Source: Haloarcula taiwanensis
Lineage (GTDB): Archaea > Halobacteriota > Halobacteria > Halobacteriales > Haloarculaceae
Assembly (NCBI GenBank): GCA_002844335.1
Contig: CP019155.1
Span: forward strand, 1 to 64,000
Length of the DNA stretch: 64,000 nucleotides
Direction of reading: 5' to 3'
Positions 18,707-36,120 of this stretch are shown in pieces. Position numbers and translations under genes: made by a program. The notes beneath the pieces are model-generated. The model made no database searches. It worked only from the letters and a program-made list of their open reading frames with translations, and was not told the DNA's origin. Position 1 is the first letter of the stretch. Every line of letters begins with the position of its first letter.

Positions 18707-21556
18707 CTATCTGGTGGTGTCGGTTTGTCTGTACAGCCACGCCAGCGCCGTCCCGAGTACCGCTGTCGCCCCAGTCAGTGTCGTGAAGCCGGGTCCACTG
18801 GCGTCCGTCACAGGAGGCGTCCCCGTTGCTGTGTCCGCGCTCTCCGTCTCATCGGTAGTCGTTGCGCCGCTCGCCGCAGTACCCTCGTCTGTCTCGGTGC
18901 CGTCCGGCGTCGGCGTGTTACCGATAGCAGCGCCAGTTGAGTTTGCCGGCAGCGCCAGCGTTCGGGACTCGGTTGTGGCGGACTCAATAGCTGCGTCGGC
19001 GAACAACAGCTGTTTGTACTCGAAATTCTCGAACATCGCCAGCTGGTCGGCATAATGCTCGCCAGTGGTGCCGTCTGGTGCGACGTAGCCGTCGTTCCCG
19101 GGCGGGAGGATGTTCTCTGCCTCCGGGTCGTCACTGAGCCGGACGACGTGGTTCTCAGTTCCGCGGTTCATCAGCGCCGTGTTCCCCGCGGATGTGGCAC
19201 CGATAGGCATCCCGAACAGCGCGAGATTGTCGAACTCATGGAGTGCTGCCTCACGACGCCAGGTCTTTGGGGCCCCGTCGTATTGCTCGGCGAGTTCGCC
19301 CACGGCCGTCCGGAACGCGCTGACCAGCGCGTCGGTAATATCTCCATCCGCGTACTCTGCCTGCGTCGTCAGTGCTGTCTCCGCCGGGTTGAGGACCCGC
19401 ATCAGGGTGCCGCGACCGTAGTCGTAGCCGAGGAAGAACGATGCCGGGCCGTAGGCACTCCCGAACGTCTCGCTGAAAACCTCGTCCAGAATGTACGGGA
19501 ACGTCGCATCCCAGATGGTGTACCCGGGAGAGTGGCGTCCCTCGTTGTCTTCGCCGTCGGCCTGTGCGAAGTGGTCCCACGAGGCCAGTTCGTCGCGTGC
19601 TTGCTGTTCGGTGTCGGAGAGGTCTACGTCCGCAAGCGCATCCAGCAAATGGTCTCTATACCGAATCGAACGCAGGTCGGTGAAGGAGATATCGTAGACG
19701 ACAGTCTTCAGGAAGTCGTAATCAACTGTTCCCTCCTGTGCTAACCGCTGCTCAACTAGATTGATGATCCGTTGCACACGGTGGTCGGTCGACCACGAGT
19801 AGCTCAGGTCGCCGTTGTTCCACGCAGGCGCGGGTTTGTTGTTCCACTGTGCCGAGTACCCCGGCTCGGGGTTGATTGCGTAGGGCACGTCACCGTCAGC
19901 CGCGCGCAGGTAGTCCGACGCCGTGAGTTCGTACTGTGTTCCATCTGCTGGCAACCGAGTGTCCCAGTCGACCGCTTCGCTGTCCGGGTACCGACCGAGA
20001 TGGACATACGCGATGTCACCGTCTTTGTCGGCCCACATGAAGTTCAACGCATAGTCACACCGCTGGGCTGATTCCCGGAACTCCTCGGCGTCCGTCGCGA
20101 ACTGACACTCATAGAAGGCCCGCCAGCAGTTCATATGCCGGCCGGCGTATGACTTCGTCTGTGCCAGTGCTTCCCCGTTGTCAGGGTCCCACTGGGTCAC
20201 GACACCGTGGCGAGTGAACCGTTCAGTATACGTCACGTCCTCGCCGTCAGCGACGGTGATTGTCTGTTCGGCCGTTTCGACCTCGTACTCCTCGCCCTGA
20301 AAGGAGTACGTGTCCGGCCCCGACGAGTTGGTCGTGATCGACTCCGTGAACATCTGGATGCAGTTATCGATTCCGGCAGTCGAGGTCAGTGCCCCGTTGC
20401 GGTTGTGTCCGAACATGATGAAGGGATACCCCGCAACAGTGACACCGGCGATGTCGAAGTCCGGGCCGTGCAGGCTCGCCTCGTACATTATCGAGGGCGT
20501 GTTGAACCCCATCTGTGGCCCGCCCATCAGTAGCGCATCGCCGCTGGCCGTGATGTCACCCTGGACAGCGAGAGCGTTGCTGCCGTACTTGATCGGGAGG
20601 CCAAGCCTGTCGAGTCCGGACGCAATCGTTCGCATCCGCTCCATTTCGCCTTCGTGCATCCCTTCGGGGTCAGCTGGCGGCGTGTACTCCCCACCAGTCA
20701 CCAGATTGCTCGGCAGCACAGACGAACCGCTTGCCCCACGTGTCACCCTGTCTGTCTCCTGTCCCTCAGTCACGTTGGGTGTTGGCTCCGCACCCACGTC
20801 GGTATAGGGAGGAGAGTAGATATCCGATGGCTGGACCGTCGAGGTCGGGCAACCGGGGTCGTCGCCCCATTGCAGGTCCTCGAATAGCTCCATCGCACGC
20901 TGTTCGCTACCAGTTTCCTGCGTGAGCGTGTCGAGAACTGTCGCACCGAGTGTTTCGAGCTGGAAGCCGCTGAAATACGCCATACTGGCGACGAACATCC
21001 CGGCAGCGTCCGTCGTGGTAAACTCCTCGGGCTCGAACCCGTGCTCCTGAAAGGCCTGATGGAATTGCAGTTCCTCGCTTTCACGGACTTCGGTAATGTA
21101 TCGGTTGATACCATCTGTAAACGCCTGCAGGACCGCTCGCTGGTCCGCCGTCAACTGTTCAGCGGCCTGCTCGTCCAGTGACGGCTCGCCGGCGGTGTTG
21201 CGCCGCGCCTCGATATCGAACTGGACCCAGTCGGTGTCCTCGTCGCCCGCACCGAGGACCGCCGCGACAGTCCCGTGATAGTACCGCCGGTACAGTTCGA
21301 GCTGATAAAGCCGGTCTGCCGCCGTTGCGTATCCGAATCCGTAGAACGCCGGTGCGCGGCTGTCGGCGTCGCGGGCGTAAACATGTGGGACGCCATAGTC
21401 GTCTCGTCGTATCGTGACCGTGGCATCGTCTTCTTGCGCGTAGGCTAACTCCGTCTCGATGGCACCGATTCCAGCCATGCCGGTAACCGCAGCGCCTGTC
21501 TTCAGAAGCGTTCGTCGCGAGAGGTGCTGCCACGAGTGCTGGTGCTGTGCTGGCAT
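18707..21556 (-). CDS. Exported penicillin-acylase-family amidase with C-terminal anchor
   Basis: A 949-residue Ntn-hydrolase of the penicillin/acyl-homoserine-lactone acylase family. The N-terminus has a Tat signal (SRRTLLKTGAAVTG, about residues 13-26) ending near AYA. The chain then follows the family: alpha-chain, spacer, and the autocleavage site G-S in KYGSNALAV, where S326 would be the new N-terminal nucleophile of the beta-chain. The C-terminus has a Thr/Ser/Asp-rich linker followed by PGF, a hydrophobic helix and a basic tail, the layout of PGF-CTERM proteins processed by archaeosortase A. So it is likely displayed on the cell surface. Known relatives cleave phenylacetyl or acyl amides. 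The start at 21556 gives the Tat signal; an upstream extension is ignored. Confidence 0.88.
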   Translation of the reverse strand: MPAQHQHSWQHLSRRTLLKTGAAVTGMAGIGAIETELAYAQEDDATVTIRRDDYGVPHVYARDADSRAPAFYGFGYATAADRLYQLELYRRYYHGTVAAVLGAGDEDTDWVQFDIEARRNTAGEPSLDEQAAEQLTADQRAVLQAFTDGINRYITEVRESEELQFHQAFQEHGFEPEEFTTTDAAGMFVASMAYFSGFQLETLGATVLDTLTQETGSEQRAMELFEDLQWGDDPGCPTSTVQPSDIYSPPYTDVGAEPTPNVTEGQETDRVTRGASGSSVLPSNLVTGGEYTPPADPEGMHEGEMERMRTIASGLDRLGLPIKYGSNALAVQGDITASGDALLMGGPQMGFNTPSIMYEASLHGPDFDIAGVTVAGYPFIMFGHNRNGALTSTAGIDNCIQMFTESITTNSSGPDTYSFQGEEYEVETAEQTITVADGEDVTYTERFTRHGVVTQWDPDNGEALAQTKSYAGRHMNCWRAFYECQFATDAEEFRESAQRCDYALNFMWADKDGDIAYVHLGRYPDSEAVDWDTRLPADGTQYELTASDYLRAADGDVPYAINPEPGYSAQWNNKPAPAWNNGDLSYSWSTDHRVQRIINLVEQRLAQEGTVDYDFLKTVVYDISFTDLRSIRYRDHLLDALADVDLSDTEQQARDELASWDHFAQADGEDNEGRHSPGYTIWDATFPYILDEVFSETFGSAYGPASFFLGYDYGRGTLMRVLNPAETALTTQAEYADGDITDALVSAFRTAVGELAEQYDGAPKTWRREAALHEFDNLALFGMPIGATSAGNTALMNRGTENHVVRLSDDPEAENILPPGNDGYVAPDGTTGEHYADQLAMFENFEYKQLLFADAAIESATTESRTLALPANSTGAAIGNTPTPDGTETDEGTAASGATTTDETESADTATGTPPVTDASGPGFTTLTGATAVLGTALAWLYRQTDTTR

Positions 21557-21747
21557 CCCGTAGTCGACAGTCCGGATATTTAATAAATATTTGGGGACAT
21601 TTCTGGGCGTGTCAATGAGATGCCTTTCCAGATGCGGTATCAGGGTCGGTCTGTCCCGGCCAATTCGCCCAGCACCCGCACTGAGTTCAACGGCCGCCCG
21701 CACTCACGGCCCAAGCATATAATTGGGAGCCTGCCGCAGTTCTCGCC

Positions 21748-23592: not shown

Positions 23593-24405
23593 TCACTCGC
23601 TGGCCCACTCCGGCTCTCTGTCTTCGAGGAACGCGTCGATCCCCTCGTCCTTGTCGCCAGTTGCGAACAGCTGTGCGAACAGTTCGGCTTCGTACTCGAT
23701 GCCGGCTTCGAGATCCATTCGGGAACTGGCACGGACGGCTTTCTTCGCCAGTTCGAGCGCCGCGGGGCTTTTCTCTGCAATCGACGCCGCTATCTCGTAG
23801 ACCCGCTCATCGAAGACGTCGTCGTCGTGGACCTCGTCGACGAGGCCGATGTCGGCGGCCTCTGTTGCGTCGATGAGGTCGCCGGTAAGGATAAGCCGCA
23901 TAGCGTGGCCTTCGCCAACCAGACGCGGCAGTCGCTGTGTCCCGCCGCCGCCGGGCATGATGCCGAGGTTGATTTCCGGCTGGCCGAACTTCGCGTCCGT
24001 ATGCGCAATCCGGATATCAGCAGCCTGAATCAGCTCACAGCCGCCGCCGAGCGCGTGCCCGTTGATGCGGGCGATGACCGGCATCGGGCATTCGTCGACG
24101 TATTCGTAGACCCGGGGTCGCTTGCTCGCCTCCCGTTGCTCTAGCATATCCCGCTCGCGGAGTTCCGTCACGTCCGCACCCGCAACGAATGCGCCGGTGT
24201 CTGCCGCGCCAGTCAACACGACAGCACGGACATCGCTGTCCGGGATTGCGTCGAAGACCTGTTTGAACTCCGACCGCAACTGGGTATTGAGCGCGTTTCG
24301 AGCCTCCGGCCGGTGTAACTCGACGGTGGCGACATTCTCGACGCGGTCACCGACGCTCACCGAAACCGTTTCACAGTCCGCCGCGGCGTCAGCGAGGTCC
24401 GTCAT
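23593..24405 (-). CDS. Enoyl-CoA hydratase (PaaF-like)
   Basis: A 270-residue crotonase-fold protein. Both hydratase glutamates are present: E124 in GGGCEL and E144 in FGQPEINLG, equal to E144 and E164 of rat enoyl-CoA hydratase. The oxyanion-hole segment VAGADV is near residue 75. So it should hydrate 2-enoyl-CoA esters to (S)-3-hydroxyacyl-CoA; in the phenylacetate pathway this is the PaaF step on dehydroadipyl-CoA. Its start overlaps the upstream 3-hydroxyacyl-CoA dehydrogenase gene by 4 bases, giving direct coupling of consecutive steps. Other short- or medium-chain enoyl-CoA substrates are possible. Confidence 0.85.
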   Translation of the reverse strand: MTDLADAAADCETVSVSVGDRVENVATVELHRPEARNALNTQLRSEFKQVFDAIPDSDVRAVVLTGAADTGAFVAGADVTELRERDMLEQREASKRPRVYEYVDECPMPVIARINGHALGGGCELIQAADIRIAHTDAKFGQPEINLGIMPGGGGTQRLPRLVGEGHAMRLILTGDLIDATEAADIGLVDEVHDDDVFDERVYEIAASIAEKSPAALELAKKAVRASSRMDLEAGIEYEAELFAQLFATGDKDEGIDAFLEDREPEWASE

Positions 24406-25286
24406 GCGTCCCCCCAGTCGCCGCTGGTACCGACGACGTCACCGTCCTCCCAGACGTAGAACCCCTCGCCGGATTTCTTGCCGAGTTTTCCGGCCCGGAC
24501 CTTCCGTTTCAGGATCTGTGGCGGGCGGAACCGTTCGCCGAGTTCCGCACGCAGGTATTCGAGGATGTCGAGTCGGACGTCGAGACCGACGACATCGCCG
24601 AGTTCGATCGGTCCCATCGGGTGATTGTAGCCGAGTTCCATCGCGGTGTCGATGTCCCGCGGTGTTGCAACGCCCTCCTGCACCATCCGCATCGCTTCGA
24701 CGCCCAGAGAGACACCAAGCCGAGAGGAGGCAAAGCCCGGTGCGTCAGCCACCTCCACCGGTGTCTTGTCGATCCCGTTCACGAACTCCCGGGCACGCGA
24801 AACGGTCTCGGCGCTCGTCTGTTCCGCGACGACGATCTCGACGAGTGCCATGATATGTACAGGATTGAAGAAGTGGAGGCCGATAGCTCGTTCCGGATAG
24901 TCGAGGACACTCGCTATCTCAGTCAGTGACAGCGAGGAGGTGTTTGACGCGATAAGCGTCGCCGGGTCGACGTGGGATTCGACCTCGGTGAGCGTCTCGT
25001 GTTTGATATCCATGTCTTCGGGGACTGCTTCCACGACGAGGTCTGCGCCGGTCACAGCCTCCTCGAGCGATGTTGTCCCCGTGAGACGGTCCAGTGCTGC
25101 TTCGGCCGTCGGCTCTGACACTTTCTCCCGGGCGATACCCTCTTCGAGATTCGACTCGATGGCGGCCAGGCCGTCATCAACGATATCTGCCTCGATATCG
25201 CGGAGAAAGACGTCGTGACTAGCCATTGCCGACACTTGAGCGATACCGTGGCCCATGGTACCGGCGCCTAGAATAGCTACGTGCAT
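24402..25286 (-). CDS. 3-hydroxyacyl-CoA dehydrogenase (PaaH/Hbd-like)
   Basis: A 294-residue NAD-dependent enzyme with the dinucleotide motif GAGTMGHG at residues about 6-13, the catalytic histidine in GLHFFNPVHIMALVEIV (about residue 135-152) and the C-terminal domain with NHPMGPIELGDVVGLD. Length matches stand-alone short-chain 3-hydroxyacyl-CoA dehydrogenases, not the fused FadB type. In this setting it fits oxidation of 3-hydroxyadipyl-CoA (PaaH). A second ATG three bases upstream (25289) is equally possible. It overlaps the hydratase gene by 4 bases and is divergent from a thiolase gene about 99 bases away, so the pathway steps sit together. Confidence 0.88.
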   Translation of the reverse strand: MHVAILGAGTMGHGIAQVSAMASHDVFLRDIEADIVDDGLAAIESNLEEGIAREKVSEPTAEAALDRLTGTTSLEEAVTGADLVVEAVPEDMDIKHETLTEVESHVDPATLIASNTSSLSLTEIASVLDYPERAIGLHFFNPVHIMALVEIVVAEQTSAETVSRAREFVNGIDKTPVEVADAPGFASSRLGVSLGVEAMRMVQEGVATPRDIDTAMELGYNHPMGPIELGDVVGLDVRLDILEYLRAELGERFRPPQILKRKVRAGKLGKKSGEGFYVWEDGDVVGTSGDWGDA

Positions 25287-25384
25287 CATTTCTCAGCACA
25301 GTAGCGAGGGGTAAAAACGTTGCCTGCGTCCCGCCGCAGTGTGGCCTGCATTTAATACAGCGGCCACGGTAAGAGTCGGTGAGG

Positions 25385-26527
25385 ATGACTGGTTCCGACT
25401 CGCAAGCCGTCGTTGTCGATGCTGTACGAACGCCACAGGTGCCGAAGGATGGCGCGCTGGCCGGGACACACCCCGAAGACCTCGTCACCACCGTGCTTGC
25501 TGCACTCGTCGACCGGACCGGTGTTCCGGCTGTCGAGTGGGACGACTTCCGACTCGGGTGTGCAAATCAGGAGGGAGAGCAGGGACGAAACCTCGCCCGG
25601 CAGTCGATACTCGCCGGCGGGTTTCCGGAAACAGTGCCCGGAGCGACAACGACCCGCCTGTGTGGCTCGTCACTGACAACGCTCGTCGACGCCGCTCGTG
25701 CCATCGAGGCGGGCGACGGTGCGGTGTATCCAGTCGCCGGCGTGGAACACATGAGCACCGTCCCCTTCTCTGACTGGCTGCATCCCGCTATCGAGCGGCG
25801 GTACGACCCCGACAGGCTGCCGATGGGACAGACGGCCGAAACCATCGCACGAAACCACGATATCAGCCGAAAATCTCAGGACGAGTTTGCGCTGCGGTCA
25901 CACGAGCGGGCGATCGCTGCGATGAACGGCGGCCGATTCGATGCAGAGACCGTGCCCGTCCACACCGACGAGACAGCGATAGAGGCCGACAAGACACCAC
26001 GGGCAGACACGTCAGTCGAGCAGTTGAGCGAACTCCCGACTGTGTTTCGCGACGACGAGGCGGCGACGGTTACGCCGGGGAACGCGTCACCGCTGACCGA
26101 CGGGGCCGCTGGGATGCTCGTCACCTCGGCAGCGTACGCAGACCAGCACGATCTCGATGTCCTCGCCCGGGTCGAGACGCGGGCCGTCGCCGGTGTCGAC
26201 CCGCTAGTCATGGGACGGGGGCCGATTCCGGCGACCCATGCTGCACTGGACGACGCCGACCTGACAATCGACGATATCGACCTTGTGGAACTCAACGAGG
26301 CGTTTGCAGCCCAGAGCCTCCACTGCAAACGCGAACTGGGGATTCCGACCGAACGGCTCAACGTCAACGGCGGGGCTATCGCGTTAGGGCATCCGCTTGG
26401 CTGTTCGGGGGCACGAATCACGACGACGTTACTGCATGAGATGCAACGGCAAGACGCGACGCACGGACTGGCGACGATGTGTGTCGGGTTTGGTCAGGGT
26501 GTCGCGGTTGTGTTCGAGCGTCCCTGA
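25385..26527 (+). CDS. Acetyl-CoA acyltransferase / thiolase (PaaJ-like)
   Basis: A 380-residue thiolase with the full catalytic set: acyl-accepting cysteine in RLCGSSL (about residue 93), the NEAFAAQ asparagine motif, the GHPLGCSGAR histidine and the C-terminal cysteine in MCVGFGQG. This is the degradative or biosynthetic thiolase I/II layout. Placed divergently from the hydroxyacyl-CoA dehydrogenase and hydratase genes it would complete beta-oxidation; in the phenylacetate route the equivalent is PaaJ, which cleaves 3-oxoadipyl-CoA and its unsaturated homologue. The ATG at 25385 is preferred over a GTG two codons upstream. Confidence 0.88.
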   Translation: MTGSDSQAVVVDAVRTPQVPKDGALAGTHPEDLVTTVLAALVDRTGVPAVEWDDFRLGCANQEGEQGRNLARQSILAGGFPETVPGATTTRLCGSSLTTLVDAARAIEAGDGAVYPVAGVEHMSTVPFSDWLHPAIERRYDPDRLPMGQTAETIARNHDISRKSQDEFALRSHERAIAAMNGGRFDAETVPVHTDETAIEADKTPRADTSVEQLSELPTVFRDDEAATVTPGNASPLTDGAAGMLVTSAAYADQHDLDVLARVETRAVAGVDPLVMGRGPIPATHAALDDADLTIDDIDLVELNEAFAAQSLHCKRELGIPTERLNVNGGAIALGHPLGCSGARITTTLLHEMQRQDATHGLATMCVGFGQGVAVVFERP

Positions 26528-26536
26528 TACTGGCGG

Positions 26537-27973
26537 CTATCGGCGCTGACTGGCGACCTGTGCCTTGAAGCCGTATCTGATGACGCCTTCCTGGGTGTAG
26601 ATGCGCCGCGTCGTCAGCACGACAGGGGTGCCGATTGTGACTTCCGCCCCCGCCTGAAGCACCTGTGCAGGGACACTCACGGTCTGTGCACCCGACGGGC
26701 TGTCGAGCGCGACGATAGCGCTATCGAACTGGCCGCTCTTGGACTGCTGAGCGACGAACTCCGGCGGGGCACCGCCCTGTTCGATGGTCGTTACTGCCTC
26801 GACTGTCCCTGTTCCGGGCAGTTCGACAGCCTCGAAATCACCGGTGCGCTCGTGACAGTCCGTACAGGCCCCGGTCGGCGGGAAGTTCAACGCACCACAC
26901 GCAGAACACCGGCCGGCGACGAGTCGGTGGCGTTGTGGGATCGTCCGTTGCCAGGACGGGACGCTAACGTAGGCTCCGCCGCCCTTTGGTTCGTCGCGTG
27001 TAATCTCGCCGCGCCGCCGGAGGTACTCGGCGTAGGACAGGGAGGCAGTCCCATCCAGTGCAGTTTCGACCGGAACGGGACCAGCAACGGCGAACAGCGT
27101 CGCGCTCGCGCCGCTTCCGTACGCGGCAATCAGCACGCGCTCGGCGTCGTCCGCAAATGCTGTTGCGGCCCCGAGAAACGCACTTGCCGCGCCGGTGTCC
27201 CCGAGCGTACTGACTGTGTCCGCGGCGGCGATTGTCTCTGCGTCAACCCCGAGCGCACCAGTCGCCCGATAGGGGAGTTTGCCGTCCGGAGACTGGACCG
27301 CTGCTGCATCAACTGTCTCCATCGACACGTCCAGTCTCTCTGCCGCACTGGAAAGCGTGGTCGTGAACGCGTCGCGGTCGTACTGCGTAACGCCCAGACC
27401 GGTCGTCCGGTCGTCGCCGCCCGTTCTGAAGCGCGTTCCGGGATAAGCCGCCGTATGTGACGCTCGCTCAATGACGCTTCCGGGACCGTCCTCGTCAACA
27501 ACGAGCGCAACACTGCCGGCACCGGCGGCGTGTTCGACCTCGCTGTCAGGGTCGCCCTGCGGACAGTCGCTGATGATGACGAGGCCGATACCGTCCCCGA
27601 ACGGCCCGCCGTCCATGGTTGCGTCCAGCGCCTGCGCACCGGCGTGCGTGGAGCCGGTCATGGTCTGCGTCTTTGCGCTGTCTGGGACGGTGAGAATACT
27701 GCAGAGTCGCGCCGCGAGGTCCTCTTCCGCCATCGGCGGTGTCGTTGTCGCGAAGGCCAAGTGCGCGACGTCCGTGCCGGACGCGTCGGCGGCAGTGAGC
27801 GCACGGCGGGCTGCTTCGACACCCATCGTGACCGCATCCTCGTCGGCGTCGGGAACCGCCTTCTCGTCGATCCCCGCTGCATCGAATCGGCCCCAGGCGG
27901 CTTCGAACTCCGCGGCGTCGATCCGTAGCCGAGGTGCGTACGCGCCGATGGCCGCGAGCCCTGAGACAGTCAT
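26537..27973 (-). CDS. HMG-CoA synthase-like protein fused to DUF35 (zinc ribbon/OB), catalytic residues missing
   Basis: A 478-residue fusion. Residues about 1-315 align with archaeal HMG-CoA synthase; residues about 340-475 are a DUF35 acyl-CoA-binding unit with a zinc ribbon (C356, C359, C370, C373) and an OB fold. The three residues HMG-CoA synthase needs are all changed: the glutamate of ATES is T77 in ATTT, the cysteine of ACxAGT is T109 in STHAG, and the histidine of FHxPNGK is Q227 in VQSPDGK. It therefore probably does not condense acetyl-CoA. Its start overlaps the thiolase stop (TGA/ATG, 4 bases), and in methanogens thiolase, HMG-CoA synthase and DUF35 form one complex. It may be a scaffold or CoA-ester channel for the thiolase. 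Confidence 0.85.
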   Translation of the reverse strand: MTVSGLAAIGAYAPRLRIDAAEFEAAWGRFDAAGIDEKAVPDADEDAVTMGVEAARRALTAADASGTDVAHLAFATTTPPMAEEDLAARLCSILTVPDSAKTQTMTGSTHAGAQALDATMDGGPFGDGIGLVIISDCPQGDPDSEVEHAAGAGSVALVVDEDGPGSVIERASHTAAYPGTRFRTGGDDRTTGLGVTQYDRDAFTTTLSSAAERLDVSMETVDAAAVQSPDGKLPYRATGALGVDAETIAAADTVSTLGDTGAASAFLGAATAFADDAERVLIAAYGSGASATLFAVAGPVPVETALDGTASLSYAEYLRRRGEITRDEPKGGGAYVSVPSWQRTIPQRHRLVAGRCSACGALNFPPTGACTDCHERTGDFEAVELPGTGTVEAVTTIEQGGAPPEFVAQQSKSGQFDSAIVALDSPSGAQTVSVPAQVLQAGAEVTIGTPVVLTTRRIYTQEGVIRYGFKAQVASQRR

Positions 27974-29142
27974 CGTGCAGCCTCCCGTTCGAGGATATGG
28001 ACAACTGCGCTGCCCCCGCTTCCACCCACGTTATGAGTCAGCCCGTACTTCGGGGCAGCTAGCTGCCGGTCTGCGGCGCTGCCGGTGAGCTGTTTGAACG
28101 CCTCGACGACCTGTCCGGCACCGGTTGCGCCGATAGGGTGGCCCTTCGATTTCAGACCGCCGGAGAGATTGACCGGTATCGCTCCGTCAGCGTCGGTCGT
28201 TCCCGCGTCGAGCAACTGCGGTGCCTCGCCACGGTCACAGAACCCGAGGTCCTCGTATGCAAGCAGTTCTGCGATTGTAAAGCAGTCGTGGACCTCCGCG
28301 AAATCGAGGTCCGCAGGGCTGACTCCGGCACGGTTGTATGCTGTGTCCGCGGCCTTCTTCGACGCGGAAATGCCGGTGTAGCTGTCTCGCTGGAAGAGAC
28401 CGACCCGGTCGCTGGCCGCCCCGACTCCAGCGACCCGGACCGGCTTGTCAGTGTACTGCTCGACGACATCCTCACTGGCGACGAGCGCGACCGCTGCGCC
28501 GTCAGAGGTCGGACAGCAGTGATAGAGGTTCAGCGGGTCTGCAACAACCGGGGCGTCGACGGCGTCTTCGAGGGAACACTCGAAGCCAAGGTGGGCCTTC
28601 GGGTTCTTCGCGCCGTTCCGGTGATTCTTGACTGCCACCATTGAAAGGTGTTCCTCGCTGGCCCCGTACTCTCGTAGATACGCGCTTGCCATCTGTGCGT
28701 AGACGCCGGAGAACGTCGTCCCGGTCAGCCGTTCCCACTCTGTTTCGCCGGAAACGCCGAGCCAGTACTTCGTCACGTCGCTACTCATATCCGTCATGAC
28801 TTCGACGCCGCCAGCCAGCGCCACGTCGGCCATCCCACTTTTGACCGCCTGAATTGCCTGTCGGACGGCATAGCCCGACGCGGCACAGGCGTTTTCAACG
28901 CGTACGCTGGGGACGCCGTGCAGCCCAGCGTGTTCGGTTGCTGCCGGGCCAGAGAGACCGAGTTGTCGACCGCCCACGCCGAGTGAGCCGACGACCGCTT
29001 CGTCTATTGCATCCGTGTCGATACCGTGGTCGACACTGTCGATGGCTTCGCTGACTGCGTGGTCGAACAGTGATCTGTAGCTCTCTTCGGGCATCGAGCC
29101 AAACGGCGTTTGCCCTGCGCCGATGAGATACGCGTCCCGCAT
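27970..29142 (-). CDS. SCP-x/Ltp-type thiolase
   Basis: A 390-residue thiolase-fold protein of the archaeal/SCP-x branch. The nucleophile C86 sits in VENACAASG; KGHPIGATGAG provides the conserved histidine, and a second motif LTHNVGGSGG ends the fold, where classic thiolases have a cysteine. This branch includes the acetoacetyl-CoA thiolase of the archaeal thiolase/HMGS/DUF35 complex and the steroid side-chain aldolase Ltp2, which needs a DUF35 partner. The downstream gene encodes exactly such a DUF35 (fused to an HMGS-like domain) with a 4-base overlap. Carbon-carbon cleavage of a 3-oxoacyl-CoA, or a retro-aldol step, is possible. Confidence 0.85.
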   Translation of the reverse strand: MRDAYLIGAGQTPFGSMPEESYRSLFDHAVSEAIDSVDHGIDTDAIDEAVVGSLGVGGRQLGLSGPAATEHAGLHGVPSVRVENACAASGYAVRQAIQAVKSGMADVALAGGVEVMTDMSSDVTKYWLGVSGETEWERLTGTTFSGVYAQMASAYLREYGASEEHLSMVAVKNHRNGAKNPKAHLGFECSLEDAVDAPVVADPLNLYHCCPTSDGAAVALVASEDVVEQYTDKPVRVAGVGAASDRVGLFQRDSYTGISASKKAADTAYNRAGVSPADLDFAEVHDCFTIAELLAYEDLGFCDRGEAPQLLDAGTTDADGAIPVNLSGGLKSKGHPIGATGAGQVVEAFKQLTGSAADRQLAAPKYGLTHNVGGSGGSAVVHILEREAAR

Positions 29143-29274
29143 ACATGGAACTCTGAGGGTACTGAAAAATAGCTTTGCATCACTCGTCGAGAGTCACACA
29201 CCACGCACGCTATTGGCAGCGGAGTGACCAATCCCAAACCATTTTATCACTCTTACCCCATTCTGTCACTGAAG

Positions 29275-30564
29275 ATGGTGTACAAGCCACTGGAGGCGTC
29301 TGGCCGTACAGAGCTGCGTGCGTTGCAAACTGACCGATTGAAAGAGACTGTCACACACGCCTATGAAAACGTCCCGTTTTACCGGGAAAAGCTCGATGAG
29401 GCGGGCGTCTCGCCCGAAGACATCCAGAGTATCGACGACATCACGAAGTTGCCGATGACGACGAAAGAGGATTTCCGCGACGAGTACCCCGACGGGCTCT
29501 TCGCCGTAGACGACGCGGACGTTGCACGTATCCACGCGTCGTCCGGGACGACCGGCAAACCCAAAATCGTCTCGTACACGGACGACGACCTCGACACCTG
29601 GAGCGAAGTCGTCGCACGGTCGTTGGCTGCGAGCGGGACCGAAGCAGGGGACACCGTCCAGAACGCCTACGGCTACGGATTGTTCACCGGCGGACTGGGG
29701 CTCCACTACGGAACTGAGGAACTGGGGGCCTCGGTTATTCCGATCGGGAGCGGCCAGACACAGCGACAGGTCGAGTTGATGACCGACTTGGAGAGCGATG
29801 TGTTCGCCTGCACCCCGTCGTATGCCCTCTATCTCGCCGAGACGGCCGAAGAGATGGGTCACGACCCCAGAGAGCTACCGATCTCGACGATTATCTTCGG
29901 AGCGGAACCGTGTACAGACCCGATGCGGGAGGAAATCGAGGCGCGGCTGGGTGTCGATGGCATCGATATTTATGGACTGTCCGAGATCATCGGTCCCGGC
30001 GTCTCGTGTGAATGCCACGAAGCGCAGGACGGGCTTCACATCTGGGAGGACCATTTCTACCCGGAGGTCATCGACCCACACACGAAAGAGCCGGTCGAGG
30101 AAGGCGAAGAGGGGGAACTCGTTCTCACAACGCTCACCAAGGAGGCGTTGCCGGTCTTCCGGTACCGGACCGGTGACCTCACGACGCTGAACTACGACGA
30201 GTGTGCGTGCGGCCGGACGATGGTACGGATGGACAACGTCACTGGCCGGACCGATGACCTCCTCATCATCCGTGGCGTCAACCTCTACCCTAGCGAAATC
30301 GAACACGCAGTACTAGATATCGACGGCGTCGCCCCGCACTACCGAATCGACCTCTACGAGGAGGACAACCTCGACGTGCTTGAACTCACCATCGAACGGA
30401 CTGCGGAGCAGGGGCCGGGCGACAAAGCGCTGGAAGATGAAATCATCGAACGTCTGGAAAACGTGCTCGCGTTCACCCCGGACGAACTCGAACTTGTCGC
30501 GCCCGGTAGCATCGAACGAACGCAGGTCGGGAAGGTGAAACGCGTTTACGACCACCGTGACTGA
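29275..30564 (+). CDS. paaK: Phenylacetate-CoA ligase
   Basis: A 429-residue AMP-forming ligase of the PaaK type, which activates phenylacetate with ATP and CoA in the cytoplasm. The P-loop SSGTTGKPK is at residues about 89-97; FGAEPCTDPMREEIE and the YGLSEIIGPGVSCEC segment form the AMP site; GRTDDLLIIRGVNLYPSEIE is the hinge to the C-terminal domain, and the terminal GKVKRV lysine motif is present. Length matches PaaK (about 430) better than longer acyl-CoA synthetases. ATG 29275 (MVYKPLEASG) is chosen over a GTG at 29224 because family homology starts there. It begins the phenylacetate block. Confidence 0.9.
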   Translation: MVYKPLEASGRTELRALQTDRLKETVTHAYENVPFYREKLDEAGVSPEDIQSIDDITKLPMTTKEDFRDEYPDGLFAVDDADVARIHASSGTTGKPKIVSYTDDDLDTWSEVVARSLAASGTEAGDTVQNAYGYGLFTGGLGLHYGTEELGASVIPIGSGQTQRQVELMTDLESDVFACTPSYALYLAETAEEMGHDPRELPISTIIFGAEPCTDPMREEIEARLGVDGIDIYGLSEIIGPGVSCECHEAQDGLHIWEDHFYPEVIDPHTKEPVEEGEEGELVLTTLTKEALPVFRYRTGDLTTLNYDECACGRTMVRMDNVTGRTDDLLIIRGVNLYPSEIEHAVLDIDGVAPHYRIDLYEEDNLDVLELTIERTAEQGPGDKALEDEIIERLENVLAFTPDELELVAPGSIERTQVGKVKRVYDHRD

Positions 30565-30567
30565 CTG

Positions 30568-30963
30568 TCAGGGCCGGTAGACTCGGCCGCGAAACGTCGC
30601 GATACGCTCGCCATCCTGTGCGGTCACCGTCACCTCGTACTCCGCGGTGCTGTCCGCAAGATGTGTCTCTTCAGCGACCGCAGACAGCGTCTCACCGGTG
30701 TCGATGGCGTCTAAATACGAGATGTTCGTCTCCAGGGCAACCGCAACCTCGCCGTGAGAGTTCGACGCCGCAGCGAACGCTGCATCGGCGAGTGAGTAAA
30801 TCGCCCCGCCGTGGGGTGTCCCATGAAAGTTCAGCAAGTCCTCGGTAATCGTCAACTCAGTCCGGGCGAACCCTGAATCGAGTTCGACCAGGTCGATGCC
30901 AAGGGTTTCACAGTACGCGTCCGATTCGATACGCTCTCTGACTTCGTCAGCGACGCCGGACAT
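30568..30963 (-). CDS. paaI: PaaI-family acyl-CoA thioesterase
   Basis: A 131-residue hotdog protein with the PaaI motif NFHGTPHGGAIYSLADAAFA (about residues 44-63). PaaI hydrolyses phenylacetyl-CoA derivatives, notably hydroxylated ones, and is thought to rescue CoA from dead-end ring products. It lies between paaK and the split paaZ genes, convergent with paaK with only three bases between the stops, which strongly supports a Paa role. It differs from the second hotdog gene at 5915-6304. Confidence 0.85.
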   Translation of the reverse strand: MSGVADEVRERIESDAYCETLGIDLVELDSGFARTELTITEDLLNFHGTPHGGAIYSLADAAFAAASNSHGEVAVALETNISYLDAIDTGETLSAVAEETHLADSTAEYEVTVTAQDGERIATFRGRVYRP

Positions 30964-31064: not shown

Positions 31065-31523
31065 ATGGCGTACAGCTACGAGCCACACCACTTCGAGGAC
31101 TTCGAAGAGGGGCAGGAGTTTATCAGTGTCGGCCGGACGGTTACCGAGTCCGATTTCGTCATGCACTCTGCCCTGTCAGGAGACTGGACTGAACTGCATA
31201 CGAACAAGGAATACGCGGAACAACAGGAGTTCGGTGAGCGGATCGCACACGGTCCGATGACGTTCGTGCAGGCGACTGGCTTCGTCTACCGGACGGGCAT
31301 CGTCGAACGGACCGCGTTCGCGTTTCTCGGAATGAACTACATGGACCTCCCGAACCCGGTCCATATCGGCGATACACTCCAACTGGAGATTGTCGTTGAC
31401 AACACCAAGGAGGTCGGGCGCGACGACGCCGGGTTAGTCGTTCTCGACACCGAAATGGAAAATCAGGACGGGACCGTCGTCTTCGAGGGCGATATGAAGT
31501 TCCTGATAAAGAAACGCGAGTAA
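31065..31523 (+). CDS. MaoC-family hydratase, possible oxepin-CoA hydrolase half of a split PaaZ
   Basis: A 152-residue hotdog hydratase of the MaoC type. The catalytic aspartate and histidine appear in SGDWTELHTNKEYA (about residues 38-51), followed by the conserved ERIAHGPMTF segment. In E. coli the PaaZ protein joins an aldehyde dehydrogenase to a MaoC-type ring-opening domain; here a MaoC gene and an aldehyde dehydrogenase gene lie 145 bases apart on one strand inside a paa cluster, so this is probably the separate ring-hydrolysing half, as in bacteria that use a stand-alone ECH enzyme. A generic (R)-enoyl-CoA hydratase is the alternative. Confidence 0.8.
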   Translation: MAYSYEPHHFEDFEEGQEFISVGRTVTESDFVMHSALSGDWTELHTNKEYAEQQEFGERIAHGPMTFVQATGFVYRTGIVERTAFAFLGMNYMDLPNPVHIGDTLQLEIVVDNTKEVGRDDAGLVVLDTEMENQDGTVVFEGDMKFLIKKRE

Positions 31524-33221: not shown

Positions 33222-33389
33222 TTACTCGAACTTCTTGAACTGCTGGAGGCACTCGTTACAGTAATGAATCGACTGACAGCGAGACGGTCCGCGTGGATGT
33301 TTTCGCTCAGTGTCAGTTGAGCTGCAGTACGGGCACTCAGCGCCCGTCTGTTCGCCGCTGGTCGTGACGCTGGGGTCGGGCTCGCTCAT
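33222..33389 (-). CDS. Small zinc-ribbon protein, detached C-terminal domain of PaaD
   Basis: A 55-residue protein not long enough for ordinary gene calling. It contains CPYCSSTDTE (C19, C22) and CNECLQQF (C44, C47), plus a further cysteine at residue 38 in SRCQSIHYC. Bacterial PaaD proteins end in a cysteine-rich zinc-ribbon domain of this type after their DUF59 domain. Here that domain is a separate gene whose ATG overlaps the stop of the DUF59 gene by 4 bases (33386-33389), so the two are made together. It probably binds zinc or takes part in assembling the iron centre of the epoxidase. Last gene of the paaABCD operon. Confidence 0.85.
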   Translation of the reverse strand: MSEPDPSVTTSGEQTGAECPYCSSTDTERKHPRGPSRCQSIHYCNECLQQFKKFE

Positions 33390-33820
33390 CCGTCGAAACT
33401 CATTCCGAAGTCCCGAAGCGCTTCTTTGCCCTGTTCGGTGACCAAGTCAATCGACCAGTCCGGGGCCCAGACCAGTCGGACCGACGCGGTCTCGATTCCG
33501 TCGACACTCTCGGCGGCTTCTTCGACCTCATCAAGGATGATCTCGCGTGCCGGACAGCCGCTGTATGTGAGTGTCATGTCGACCGTGACAGCACCATCGG
33601 ACACGTCAAGCCCATATATGAGGCCCAGATCGACGATGCTGACCGGCATCTCCGGGTCCTCGACCTGATACAGGGCCGCCCACACGTCGCGTTCGATGCC
33701 GTCGGCGTCCTCGCCTGTGGCCGGCACGTCGTCCGCTGCGTGGTCTTTGGTCTCGTAGTCGGTGTACGAACACGCGGTGGCGTCAGCGTCCGCGCGTGGC
33801 CGGTCGTAGTCGCTACTCAT
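33386..33820 (-). CDS. paaD: Phenylacetyl-CoA epoxidase subunit D, DUF59 part
   Basis: A 144-residue protein with a DUF59/MIP18 domain (residues about 45-144): DPEMPVSIVDLGLIYGLDV and the SGCPAREIILDEVEEA segment containing the reactive cysteine. PaaD is required for active PaaABC in bacteria and is believed to help mature the diiron or iron-sulfur centres. It lacks the usual C-terminal cysteine-rich part, which is the overlapping downstream gene. The start overlaps the end of paaC by 8 bases. Confidence 0.85.
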   Translation of the reverse strand: MSSDYDRPRADADATACSYTDYETKDHAADDVPATGEDADGIERDVWAALYQVEDPEMPVSIVDLGLIYGLDVSDGAVTVDMTLTYSGCPAREIILDEVEEAAESVDGIETASVRLVWAPDWSIDLVTEQGKEALRDFGMSFDG

Positions 33821-34646
33821 CGTCGGCCGCCATTATCAGCGTCGCTTTGTCGCGTCCCAGATTCCGGTAGCTGGACGTCATCTGTTCGTGCAGGTCGTGC
33901 CAGTGGTCAGTGTGTTCGTTGTCCCGGCCCGTCGGCGTTGCGGGGTCGGCATCGGTCGGCACGTCGAACCCGAGTTCGGTCAGGAACGGTTCGACGCGGG
34001 TCTCCCACTCGGTGCGCATCTCGTCGAGAGTCATCGTTCGGATGCCCAGCCGTTCGATGTCGGCTTCCACGTCACCGACGGGTTCGAACAGCGTGAGGGC
34101 GTACGGATAGAGGTCATCGATAGCCGCCTGAACGCGTTCGCTGGCTTCCTCGTCCAGTGCCATCCGGTTCAGCCAGCTTTCGGCGTGTTCGAGATGATAG
34201 CCTTCCTCGCCCTGAATGCGGCTCGTTCGGTTCCGGATTGTCTCGTACGATGAGTCCTCAAGCGCAGAGAGGCGGATATCCTCGGCCGCATCGTAGAGGT
34301 ACGCTCTGACGATGGCGCCGGCCCAGTCGCCTTCCGCAAACGGCAGCTCGACGAGCGTACTGTGCTGGAAGTCGCTGGGGTCGCTCTCGTAAATGAGCGA
34401 TTCCTCGGAGTAGCCGAGTTGCTGCACTGCATCATACCACAGTCGTGCGTGACCCAGTTCGTCCTGCGCGTTGTTCGAAATCGAGAGGTCCGATTCCAGT
34501 GTCGGCGCACGCACCTGCCAGAACGTGTAGCGTTCGGCCTGAATCAGCTCGTCGTCAGCAAGCCGGAGTAGCTGTGCCTCGACTGCACGCTGTTCGTCCT
34601 CGGACAGGTCAGCTGGACCGCCGAGGTCGGATTCCGTTGTTGCCAT
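33813..34646 (-). CDS. paaC: Phenylacetyl-CoA epoxidase subunit C (structural)
   Basis: A 277-residue ferritin-like protein. PaaC pairs with PaaA in the epoxidase core. DELGHAR near residue 62 and EEGYHLEHAESWL near residue 147 are the helix motifs that carry diiron ligands in PaaA; in PaaC they are kept partly but the protein is structural in bacteria. It overlaps paaB by one base and paaD by eight, in the bacterial order A-B-C-D. Length fits the family (about 250-280). Confidence 0.88.
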   Translation of the reverse strand: MATTESDLGGPADLSEDEQRAVEAQLLRLADDELIQAERYTFWQVRAPTLESDLSISNNAQDELGHARLWYDAVQQLGYSEESLIYESDPSDFQHSTLVELPFAEGDWAGAIVRAYLYDAAEDIRLSALEDSSYETIRNRTSRIQGEEGYHLEHAESWLNRMALDEEASERVQAAIDDLYPYALTLFEPVGDVEADIERLGIRTMTLDEMRTEWETRVEPFLTELGFDVPTDADPATPTGRDNEHTDHWHDLHEQMTSSYRNLGRDKATLIMAADDE

Positions 34647-35173
34647 TAGATCTCACCTCGCTGTTTCTCCGCTTCTATCTGCTCAGTCTCGGAGGCTTCG
34701 ACCTCCTCAGCGGCCGGATCGACGTTGTACGTCTGTGCGAACCGGTAGGACTTGTTGGTCGTCCCGCCGAAGCTCACGTCGTCCTCGGTGACTTCGCCGA
34801 TGTACTGGTGCTGGACGACCCAGAGACTGTTCGGGTCGTCGTCAGTGAACGCCGCAATCGCCGCCTGTTCTGCGTCGGCGGCGCTGGCAGCTTCGACATC
34901 ACCACAGTGCGTGTGATACCCACCAGGCTTGTCCTGCCGGAAGACGGCCCACGGTTTCTCGGCGCTGTCCTCGGTCTCGCCATGGCTCTCCGCCCCAGAG
35001 TCGACCTGCGTGATTTTCTCCTGCGGGGCAACCCAGAGCGCGTGGGTTGGTTTCCGGCGTCCGTGCTGGATGACGGCGAACTGCTTTGCCATCTCTCGGT
35101 CGGGTGCGTGGACATCTCGGCAGTGAACGAACGCCGCGTCCGGACTCTGTTGTCGGAATACTTCCCAGATCAT
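34646..35173 (-). CDS. paaB: Phenylacetyl-CoA epoxidase subunit B
   Basis: A 175-residue protein. The start is the PaaB fold (MIWEVFRQQSPDAAFVHCRDVHAPD), a short subunit that bridges PaaAC dimers in bacteria. The family is usually near 95 residues; here a further part (residues about 90-175, with FRQDKPGGYHTHCGDVEAASA) repeats features of the first half (FRQ-x-H-C-x-DV), so the protein looks like an internal duplication of PaaB. It sits between paaA (5-base gap) and paaC (1-base overlap). Confidence 0.85.
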   Translation of the reverse strand: MIWEVFRQQSPDAAFVHCRDVHAPDREMAKQFAVIQHGRRKPTHALWVAPQEKITQVDSGAESHGETEDSAEKPWAVFRQDKPGGYHTHCGDVEAASAADAEQAAIAAFTDDDPNSLWVVQHQYIGEVTEDDVSFGGTTNKSYRFAQTYNVDPAAEEVEASETEQIEAEKQRGEI

Positions 35174-35178
35174 TGTTC

Positions 35179-36120
35179 TCAGTCAGCCGCCTGTGACTGC
35201 GGGCCGCTGTTCGTCGTCGTCTGGTCGTCCATCATGTCACGGACCCACTGAACCGCTTCCTGAGCCTGTCGGCGACCCGTGATCTGCTCGATACTGCCGT
35301 CGTAATCGTTCTGTGAGACAGTGAAGAACTCGTCCCAGTCGAGGTCGTCCTCGACGACCTCGTATGTCCCGTCACCGTTATCCCGGATGCGTGGCTCATC
35401 GGGCATCTCCAGCCCGTATTTCTTGGCTTTCGGGATGTACGTATTGAGGAACGCGTTTCGAAGTTCGTCGTTCGTACACGTCTTCAGCCCGACTTCCGCG
35501 GCGAAGTCGTGATGGGTGCTCTGGTCGTCGGTCGGGCCGAAGAACTGCAAGATTCGCGGCCACCACTCTTCGAAGGCTTCCTGCACCATGCGCTGTTCCT
35601 TCCGGGAGCCGTTCATCAGTTCGCGGAGGATCGACTCGCCGTGTTTGACGTGCATCCCCTCCTCGAAGCAGATCTTGTCCATCGCGTGGGCGTACGGTTC
35701 CCAACTGGACTTTTTCAGGGTCGCTTGGCGGCGCATCGCGGCCCCGTCGACGAAGAATGCGATCATCGGCGTCTCGACGTAGCTCTCCATCGGATAATGG
35801 AAGCAGTTCAGGAACTTCCCGTCCCCGTTCGCCAGGTCTGCAAGCATCTCGTCGCGGGTCTTGACACCGAGTGACTCCGCCGCTCGGTAGAGCATCTGGC
35901 CGTGGCCGATTTCGTCCTGCACCTTCGCGCTGAAGGCCATCTTTCGCTCAATACTCGGTGCTTTTCTGATGAAGGGCCGTTCGAGGTACGCCCCCATAAT
36001 CTCGCTGTTTGCGTGGAACTCGAGCATCCGCGTGGCTGCCTTCCGATACTCTTCGGGAAGGTCGTCTTTCGGGCTGAATTCTCGGGGTCCAGCGCGGTCT
36101 TTGACTTCGTCAACGTTCAT
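35179..36120 (-). CDS. paaA: Phenylacetyl-CoA epoxidase catalytic subunit A
   Basis: A 313-residue diiron oxygenase that adds one oxygen atom to the ring of phenylacetyl-CoA. Ligand motifs of the carboxylate-bridged centre are visible: SIERKMAFSAKVQDEIGHGQ (ExxH pair) and EEGMHVKHGE (second ExxH). The start at 36120 gives MNVDEVKDRAG; the in-frame sequence further upstream crosses a promoter region and is not coding. First gene of paaABCD plus zinc-ribbon. No PaaE-type reductase gene follows, so the electron donor must be encoded elsewhere or be a ferredoxin. Confidence 0.92.
   Translation of the reverse strand: MNVDEVKDRAGPREFSPKDDLPEEYRKAATRMLEFHANSEIMGAYLERPFIRKAPSIERKMAFSAKVQDEIGHGQMLYRAAESLGVKTRDEMLADLANGDGKFLNCFHYPMESYVETPMIAFFVDGAAMRRQATLKKSSWEPYAHAMDKICFEEGMHVKHGESILRELMNGSRKEQRMVQEAFEEWWPRILQFFGPTDDQSTHHDFAAEVGLKTCTNDELRNAFLNTYIPKAKKYGLEMPDEPRIRDNGDGTYEVVEDDLDWDEFFTVSQNDYDGSIEQITGRRQAQEAVQWVRDMMDDQTTTNSGPQSQAAD

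Follow-up and report, generated by a model that had tools for sequence, protein, structure and literature searches.

An HMG-CoA-synthase-like/DUF35 fusion protein, probably non-catalytic, paired with a thiolase in the phenylacetate cluster of Haloarcula taiwanensis

In 64,000 nucleotides of Haloarcula taiwanensis DNA (contig CP019155.1, positions 1 to 64,000; the window), one gene encodes an HMG-CoA-synthase-like domain joined to a DUF35 domain. A thiolase gene lies beside it on the same strand, the two overlapping by 4 bp (ATGA; Table 1). What does such a protein do when the catalytic residues of HMG-CoA synthase (HMGS) appear to have been replaced, and what could it contribute to a thiolase? 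It had been proposed, in the original prediction, to act as a channel or scaffold for its partner. We think, with a probability of about 0.6, that the two genes encode a single heteromeric degradative beta-ketothiolase, with the fusion as its non-catalytic second subunit.

Table 1. Features of the window in and around the fusion gene
Feature	Position	Strand	Basis or detail
Fusion gene	26537..27973	-	ORF; 478 aa; HMG-CoA-synthase-like domain and DUF35 (ChsH2-type zinc ribbon and OB fold)
HMGS-like domain, residues 1-325	26999..27973	-	VIA-align
T77, catalytic Glu position	27743..27745	-	Alignment
T109, catalytic Cys position	27647..27649	-	Alignment
Q227, catalytic His position	27293..27295	-	Alignment
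DUF35 domain, residues 338-472, zinc ribbon C356/C359/C370/C373	26558..26962	-	Profile, alignment
Partner thiolase, 390 aa, SCP2/archaeal type	27970..29142	-	NF004720 444.5 bits, cut-off 420; 6esq_A
Enoyl-CoA hydratase	23593..24405	-	PF00378 230 bits; best NCBIfam match PaaF-like, below cut-off
3-Hydroxyacyl-CoA dehydrogenase	24402..25289	-	PF02737/PF00725
Second, canonical thiolase, convergent with fusion	25379..26527	+	TIGR01930 417 bits
PaaK phenylacetate-CoA ligase, divergent from thiolase gene	29224..30564	+	NF041878 816.8 bits, cut-off 700
PaaI thioesterase	30568..30963	-	TIGR02286 124.9 bits, cut-off 118.9
MaoC hydratase, resembles C-terminal half of PaaZ	31065..31523	+	PF01575; TIGR02278 positions 524-658
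PaaD, PaaC, PaaB, PaaA (phenylacetyl-CoA epoxidase subunits)	33386..36102	-	All four above NCBIfam cut-offs

Loss of the HMGS catalytic residues from the fusion

The predicted coordinates, strand and overlap were exact. The C-terminal part of the fusion matches PF12172, a ChsH2-type zinc ribbon, with 39.3 bits and continues into an OB fold, and the four predicted cysteines of the ribbon are intact. The best PDB sequence matches of the protein were the HMGS of the Methanothermococcus complex 6ESQ, PhlA (5M3K, 9SKH) and the DUF35 chain of 6ESQ. An AlphaFold2 model made with 44 homologues as input had a pLDDT of 87 and a pTM of 0.89, and its residues 2-325 superposed on 6esq_I with a Z score of 41.6 (322 residues, 2.1 A; VIA-align). 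PhlA-type chains (9skh_A, 5mg5_A, 5m3k_A; Z 39.4-40.8) ranked just below the 6ESQ HMGS, and other HMG-CoA synthases ranked below the PhlA-type subunits. A phage origin was considered and rejected, the fusion having no match in phage records.

Alignment with phmmer and MAFFT placed T77 and T109 at the Glu and Cys of Methanothermococcus HMGS, which are the catalytic Glu82 and Cys114 (PMC6392133), and Q227 at its active-site His. The Glu/Cys/His set of HMG-CoA synthase is thus absent from the fusion, in agreement with the original prediction, while stand-alone archaeal HMGSs keep Glu-Cys-His-Asn. The fusion also scores below the HMG-CoA synthase equivalog cut-offs (NF003274, 139.8 of 244; TIGR00748, 86.2 of 353; NF041302, 28.9 of 800). 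As a bona fide haloarchaeal HMG-CoA synthase is encoded elsewhere in the genome (869 bits, cut-off 800), we do not regard the fusion as the mevalonate enzyme.

Glu and Cys were absent from every one of the more than 100 aligned proteins with a C-terminal DUF35 fusion, which came from haloarchaea, other Halobacteriota, Proteobacteria and Actinobacteria. The loss of His is less general, as a small minority retains it, namely a divergent haloarchaeal subclade (L017-L020) and one bacterial member. Nearly all haloarchaeal orthologues of the fusion keep T or S at position 77 and T at position 109, a pattern that, judged from the alignment, is far above chance. To judge by these relatives, the fusion is not a case of one-off decay.

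The strong conservation of Thr at both positions within haloarchaea would fit an HMGS-like half that is still catalytic through other residues, for example in hydrolysis or acyl transfer by Thr109 or by a relocated residue. Across the wider fusion family, however, position 109 can be T, I, L, V, M, F, A, Q, P or R. Catalytic residues placed elsewhere in the protein were looked for by checking every Cys and His of the HMGS-like half in the alignment, and a relocated nucleophile is disfavoured because none of these residues is conserved across the family. Residual catalysis of this kind seems very improbable, and the alignments support a non-catalytic HMGS-like half.

The partner thiolase and its pairing with the fusion

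The thiolase retains C86, H285-D-C287-F (HDCF), H335 and N371, and Cys86, His285, Asp286, Cys287, Phe288, His335 and Asn371 were invariant in 18 diverse partner thiolases. It has the thiolase fold, Cys nucleophile, HDCF and GHP motifs of an SCP2-type thiolase. Structural matches of both subunits were sought with single-chain models. The best match of the thiolase model was 6esq_A (Z 56.8, 383 residues), followed by BbsB (Z 55) and then SCP2 thiolases; against the sequence model for BbsB it scored 217, with a cut-off of 750. A role as an Ltp2/Sal aldolase was ruled out by motif, the protein having HDCF and C86 without the Tyr-based motif.

The structural ranking of the fusion raises the question of whether the pair is instead a PhlABC-like acyltransferase, moving acyl groups from one substrate to another instead of thiolysing 3-oxoacyl-CoA. 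Among characterised proteins the closest non-catalytic HMGS-like subunit is PhlA, it too has D at the Asn position, and PhlA-type chains come just behind the 6ESQ HMGS in structure. The thiolase argues otherwise: PhlC, with about 25% identity and a Z of about 52, fits it worse than do the 6ESQ thiolase, BbsB and SCP2 thiolase. The gene context is catabolic, and in our tree PhlA, on a long branch, stands beside the catalytic HMGS clade and not with the fusions. We therefore consider an acyltransferase of this type highly unlikely.

The thiolase gene is immediately upstream of the fusion gene on the same strand at 76/79 haloarchaeal loci, mostly with an overlap of 4-10 bp; in other archaea and in bacteria it is immediately downstream. 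Mean pairwise identity is 76% for the thiolase against 60% for the fusion. Over 74 loci the distance matrices of the two proteins correlate with r=0.83, and none of 1000 permutations exceeded 0.22; shared species history contributes to this correlation. Three further thiolases of this type are encoded in the genome, and a DUF35 gene lies close to each.

A degradative context and a proposed role

The pair lies in a phenylacetate cluster with paaK, paaI, a MaoC hydratase, an aldehyde dehydrogenase and paaABCD, and downstream of the fusion, on its strand, are the genes for a hydroxyacyl-CoA dehydrogenase and an enoyl-CoA hydratase. The dehydrogenase gene is found downstream on the same strand at 39/71 haloarchaeal loci with enough flank, 23 of which have no canonical thiolase nearby. 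A canonical thiolase convergent with the fusion, as in the window, occurs at a minority of related loci only. The canonical thiolase found in the window has a close orthologue in only 7/117 Halobacteriales genomes, a rough comparison since the threshold was stricter than that for the fusion. At two loci (L152, L153) a gene fusing the dehydrogenase and the hydratase is directly upstream. Bacterial pairs adjoin genes for acyl-CoA dehydrogenase, SDR, enoyl-CoA hydratase, MaoC (L105, L163 and L165 are examples of these) or ring-hydroxylating dioxygenase. On the Haloferax mediterranei megaplasmid pHME505 (L160; record 220107-237510) the cluster recurs with paaK, paaI, MaoC, thiolase, fusion, thiolase, hydroxyacyl-CoA dehydrogenase and enoyl-CoA hydratase; paaABCD was not in the 17 kb examined there. 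The context of the pair is degradative.

Elsewhere in the window, an ORF at 18707-21703 (-), of 998 aa, has a twin-arginine-like start region (RRTLLKTGAAVTGMAG) and may belong to the penicillin acylase family.

The link to phenylacetate is also seen across genomes. Among 117 Halobacteriales genomes, the fusion was present in 54/59 with paaA and in 16/58 without it (odds ratio 28, p 3.6e-13, uncorrected for phylogeny, as are all p values here). PHA synthase served as a control: the fusion had no detectable association with phaC in the same 117 genomes (odds ratio 1.8, p 0.18), and phaC and paaA gave an odds ratio of 1.6.

This control bears on two other explanations. The pair could be a relic or a spare thiolase with no dedicated role, co-occurring with paaA because large genomes are versatile. 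In many Natrialbaceae it does stand among unrelated genes, away from paa and beta-oxidation genes. The catalytic residues of the thiolase and the zinc ribbon are maintained, however, and phaC shows no such association, so there is little chance that this explanation is right. Alternatively, the pair could be a biosynthetic two-subunit ketothiolase like Haloferax BktB/PhaA, making acetoacetyl-CoA or 3-ketovaleryl-CoA for PHA or isoprenoids. Haloarchaea provide an established case of a two-subunit thiolase that depends on its OB-fold subunit (PMC7137286), and the best structural match, the 6ESQ thiolase, is biosynthetic. Against this are the lack of association with phaC, the degradative context, a nucleophile position occupied by Cys and not by the Ser reported for BktB/PhaA, and the three other thiolase/DUF35 pairs of the genome, which could do that job. 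We think a biosynthetic role unlikely.

The degradative ketothiolase we prefer would work as follows. The SCP2-type subunit (390 aa) would carry out the retro-Claisen chemistry through Cys86, His285/Cys287 and His335. The DUF35 half would clamp the fusion onto the thiolase and help to form the CoA/substrate pocket, and the HMGS-like half, taking the place of HMGS in the 6ESQ complex or of PhlA in PhlABC, would complete the CoA or substrate cavity. We infer that the two proteins form a physical complex in which the fusion is required and may itself bind CoA, and that the reaction runs in the thiolytic direction, cleaving a 3-oxoacyl-CoA to close a beta-oxidation-type sequence. In haloarchaea the leading candidate substrates are the 3-oxo intermediates of aerobic phenylacetyl-CoA degradation; elsewhere other beta-oxidation substrates seem likely.

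The original idea of a channel or scaffold thus survives in part. The apparently non-catalytic half, the intact thiolase, the conserved adjacency and the matching divergence are consistent with an assembly of thiolase, HMGS-like and DUF35 parts whose CoA-ester substrate is not acetoacetyl-CoA. Channelling as in methanogens is unsupported, as the pair lacks a second active site that could receive an intermediate.

In bacteria the thiolase for the 3-oxo intermediates of phenylacetate is PaaJ. Some observations weigh against a heteromeric thiolase in this role: 16 genomes have the fusion but no paaA, the canonical thiolase of the window could serve as PaaJ, and in BbsAB and BktB a DUF35 subunit suffices, so that the HMGS-like half need not be essential. 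A broader proposal is made tentatively, and we put it at somewhat less than an even chance: that the pairs represent an unrecognised class of heteromeric degradative beta-ketothiolase, widespread among both archaea and bacteria, whose second subunit is an HMGS paralogue that gave up catalysis, was joined to DUF35 and came to be required for binding the CoA ester, and that in haloarchaea this enzyme is the missing PaaJ of phenylacetate degradation.

The wider family and its relation to known systems

Our sample comprised 80 loci from named genomes, loci of relatives, 20 loci of other Halobacteriota and bacterial plasmid records. The fused form is found throughout haloarchaea and in many bacteria. 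Not every fusion of HMGS and DUF35 domains is non-catalytic, a generalisation that we tried and found to be wrong. Proteins with the reverse order, DUF35-HMGS (L140-L143, about 505 aa), which come from a single family of the phylum, retain all four catalytic residues (Glu, Cys, His and Asn), so fusion per se does not imply loss. In an LG+C20 tree, which is unrooted and so gives no direction of change between catalytic and non-catalytic forms, the catalytic proteins lie on one side of a branch with support of 100/96.

Two further variants were seen. Bacterial fusions L106 and L165 no longer have the cysteines of the zinc ribbon (the four positions read CTSD and -QPA), while the partner thiolase is intact. 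At L022, L023, L130, L132, L134 and L135 a catalytic archaeal HMGS adjoins a thiolase with Asp for the nucleophilic Cys (EAADASG/EAGDASG) and HDSY or HDSF instead of HDCF, which suggests a mirror image, with an inactive thiolase and an active HMGS.

Automatic pipelines annotate family members as 'OB-fold domain-containing', 'zinc ribbon domain-containing', '3-oxoacyl-ACP synthase III C-terminal' or 'hydroxymethylglutaryl-CoA synthase'. One protein (L144:504-1970 (+)) scores 329 bits against the cut-off of 244 for NF003274, an HMG-CoA synthase equivalog, yet has T, A and D at the Glu, Cys and His positions, and this assignment is a likely source of misannotation. In open full-text papers, annotation names included, we found no description of the fused non-catalytic HMGS-DUF35 family, its breadth or its link to beta-oxidation and phenylacetate, and the openly readable literature yielded no biochemistry for this thiolase/fusion pair. 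Seeing the family as non-catalytic thiolase subunits would correct mevalonate-pathway annotations. It would also give a candidate thiolase for haloarchaeal phenylacetate catabolism, the archaeal versions of which were described in 2026 as predominantly incomplete (PMC13186573). The pair would further allow genetic tests of how the fold of an enzyme can be taken over for a structural subunit, and Haloferax mediterranei has it beside paaK on its megaplasmid.

All three folds of the Methanothermococcus thiolase/HMGS/DUF35 complex (6ESQ) are common to the window pair. The 6ESQ thiolase is 42% identical to the partner thiolase in structural alignment, with the Cys, HDCF and GH motifs kept in both. 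The thiolase with catalytic Cys and His is therefore present here, but the HMGS active-site residues are not: in 6ESQ the HMGS is catalytic (Glu82, Cys114 and His) and DUF35 is a separate chain, whereas here the half lacking all three is fused to DUF35. The 6ESQ complex also belongs to a mevalonate context, the window pair to a degradative one.

BbsAB, a benzoylsuccinyl-CoA thiolase (7PXP, 7PYT), is likewise degradative and combines a thiolase, our second-best structural match, with a DUF35 subunit; we know of no HMGS-like part in it. Haloferax mediterranei BktB and PhaA are haloarchaeal two-subunit thiolases whose OB-fold beta subunit is indispensable (PMC7137286). That feature is present here as the DUF35 of the fusion, with an extra HMGS-like half; BktB/PhaA are biosynthetic and reportedly have Ser-His-His where the partner thiolase has Cys86, and that review mentions no HMGS-like half in the beta subunit. 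The steroid aldolases Ltp2/ChsH2 and Sal/Shy resemble the pair in having a thiolase fold clamped by DUF35, but carry a YDCY motif or paired Tyr (PMC12329534) where C86, HDCF and H335 are kept here.

The multi-component acyltransferase PhlABC (5M3K, 9SKH), like its relative MucABC (9VBO), brings together an HMGS-like subunit, a catalytic thiolase-fold subunit and a DUF35/OB-fold subunit (PMC6392133), and the window pair has the same parts. In PhlABC the catalytic residues are solely in PhlC, all three subunits contribute to the lining of the cavity, and PhlA has been shown to lack Cys and Glu (PMC6392133), as the fusion does. The complete PhlACB operon is required for a functional enzyme although PhlC is the catalytic subunit (PMC12955522). 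The combination of an HMGS-like part without Cys and Glu, an intact thiolase and an OB fold with zinc ribbon is thus also that of the window pair. PhlABC differs in having three separate chains, in acting on phenols without CoA-activated reagents, in its distant PhlC and in the separate branching of PhlA. The novelty implied by the original prediction was accordingly too high, given PhlA and a description from 2010 (PMC2954200) of DUF35 combined with two thiolase-superfamily members, one active and one inactive. The arrangement is precedented in parts: by the methanogen thiolase/HMGS/DUF35 complex, by the empty HMGS-like subunit of PhlABC, by the DUF35-dependent thiolase BbsAB and by the pair of 2010.
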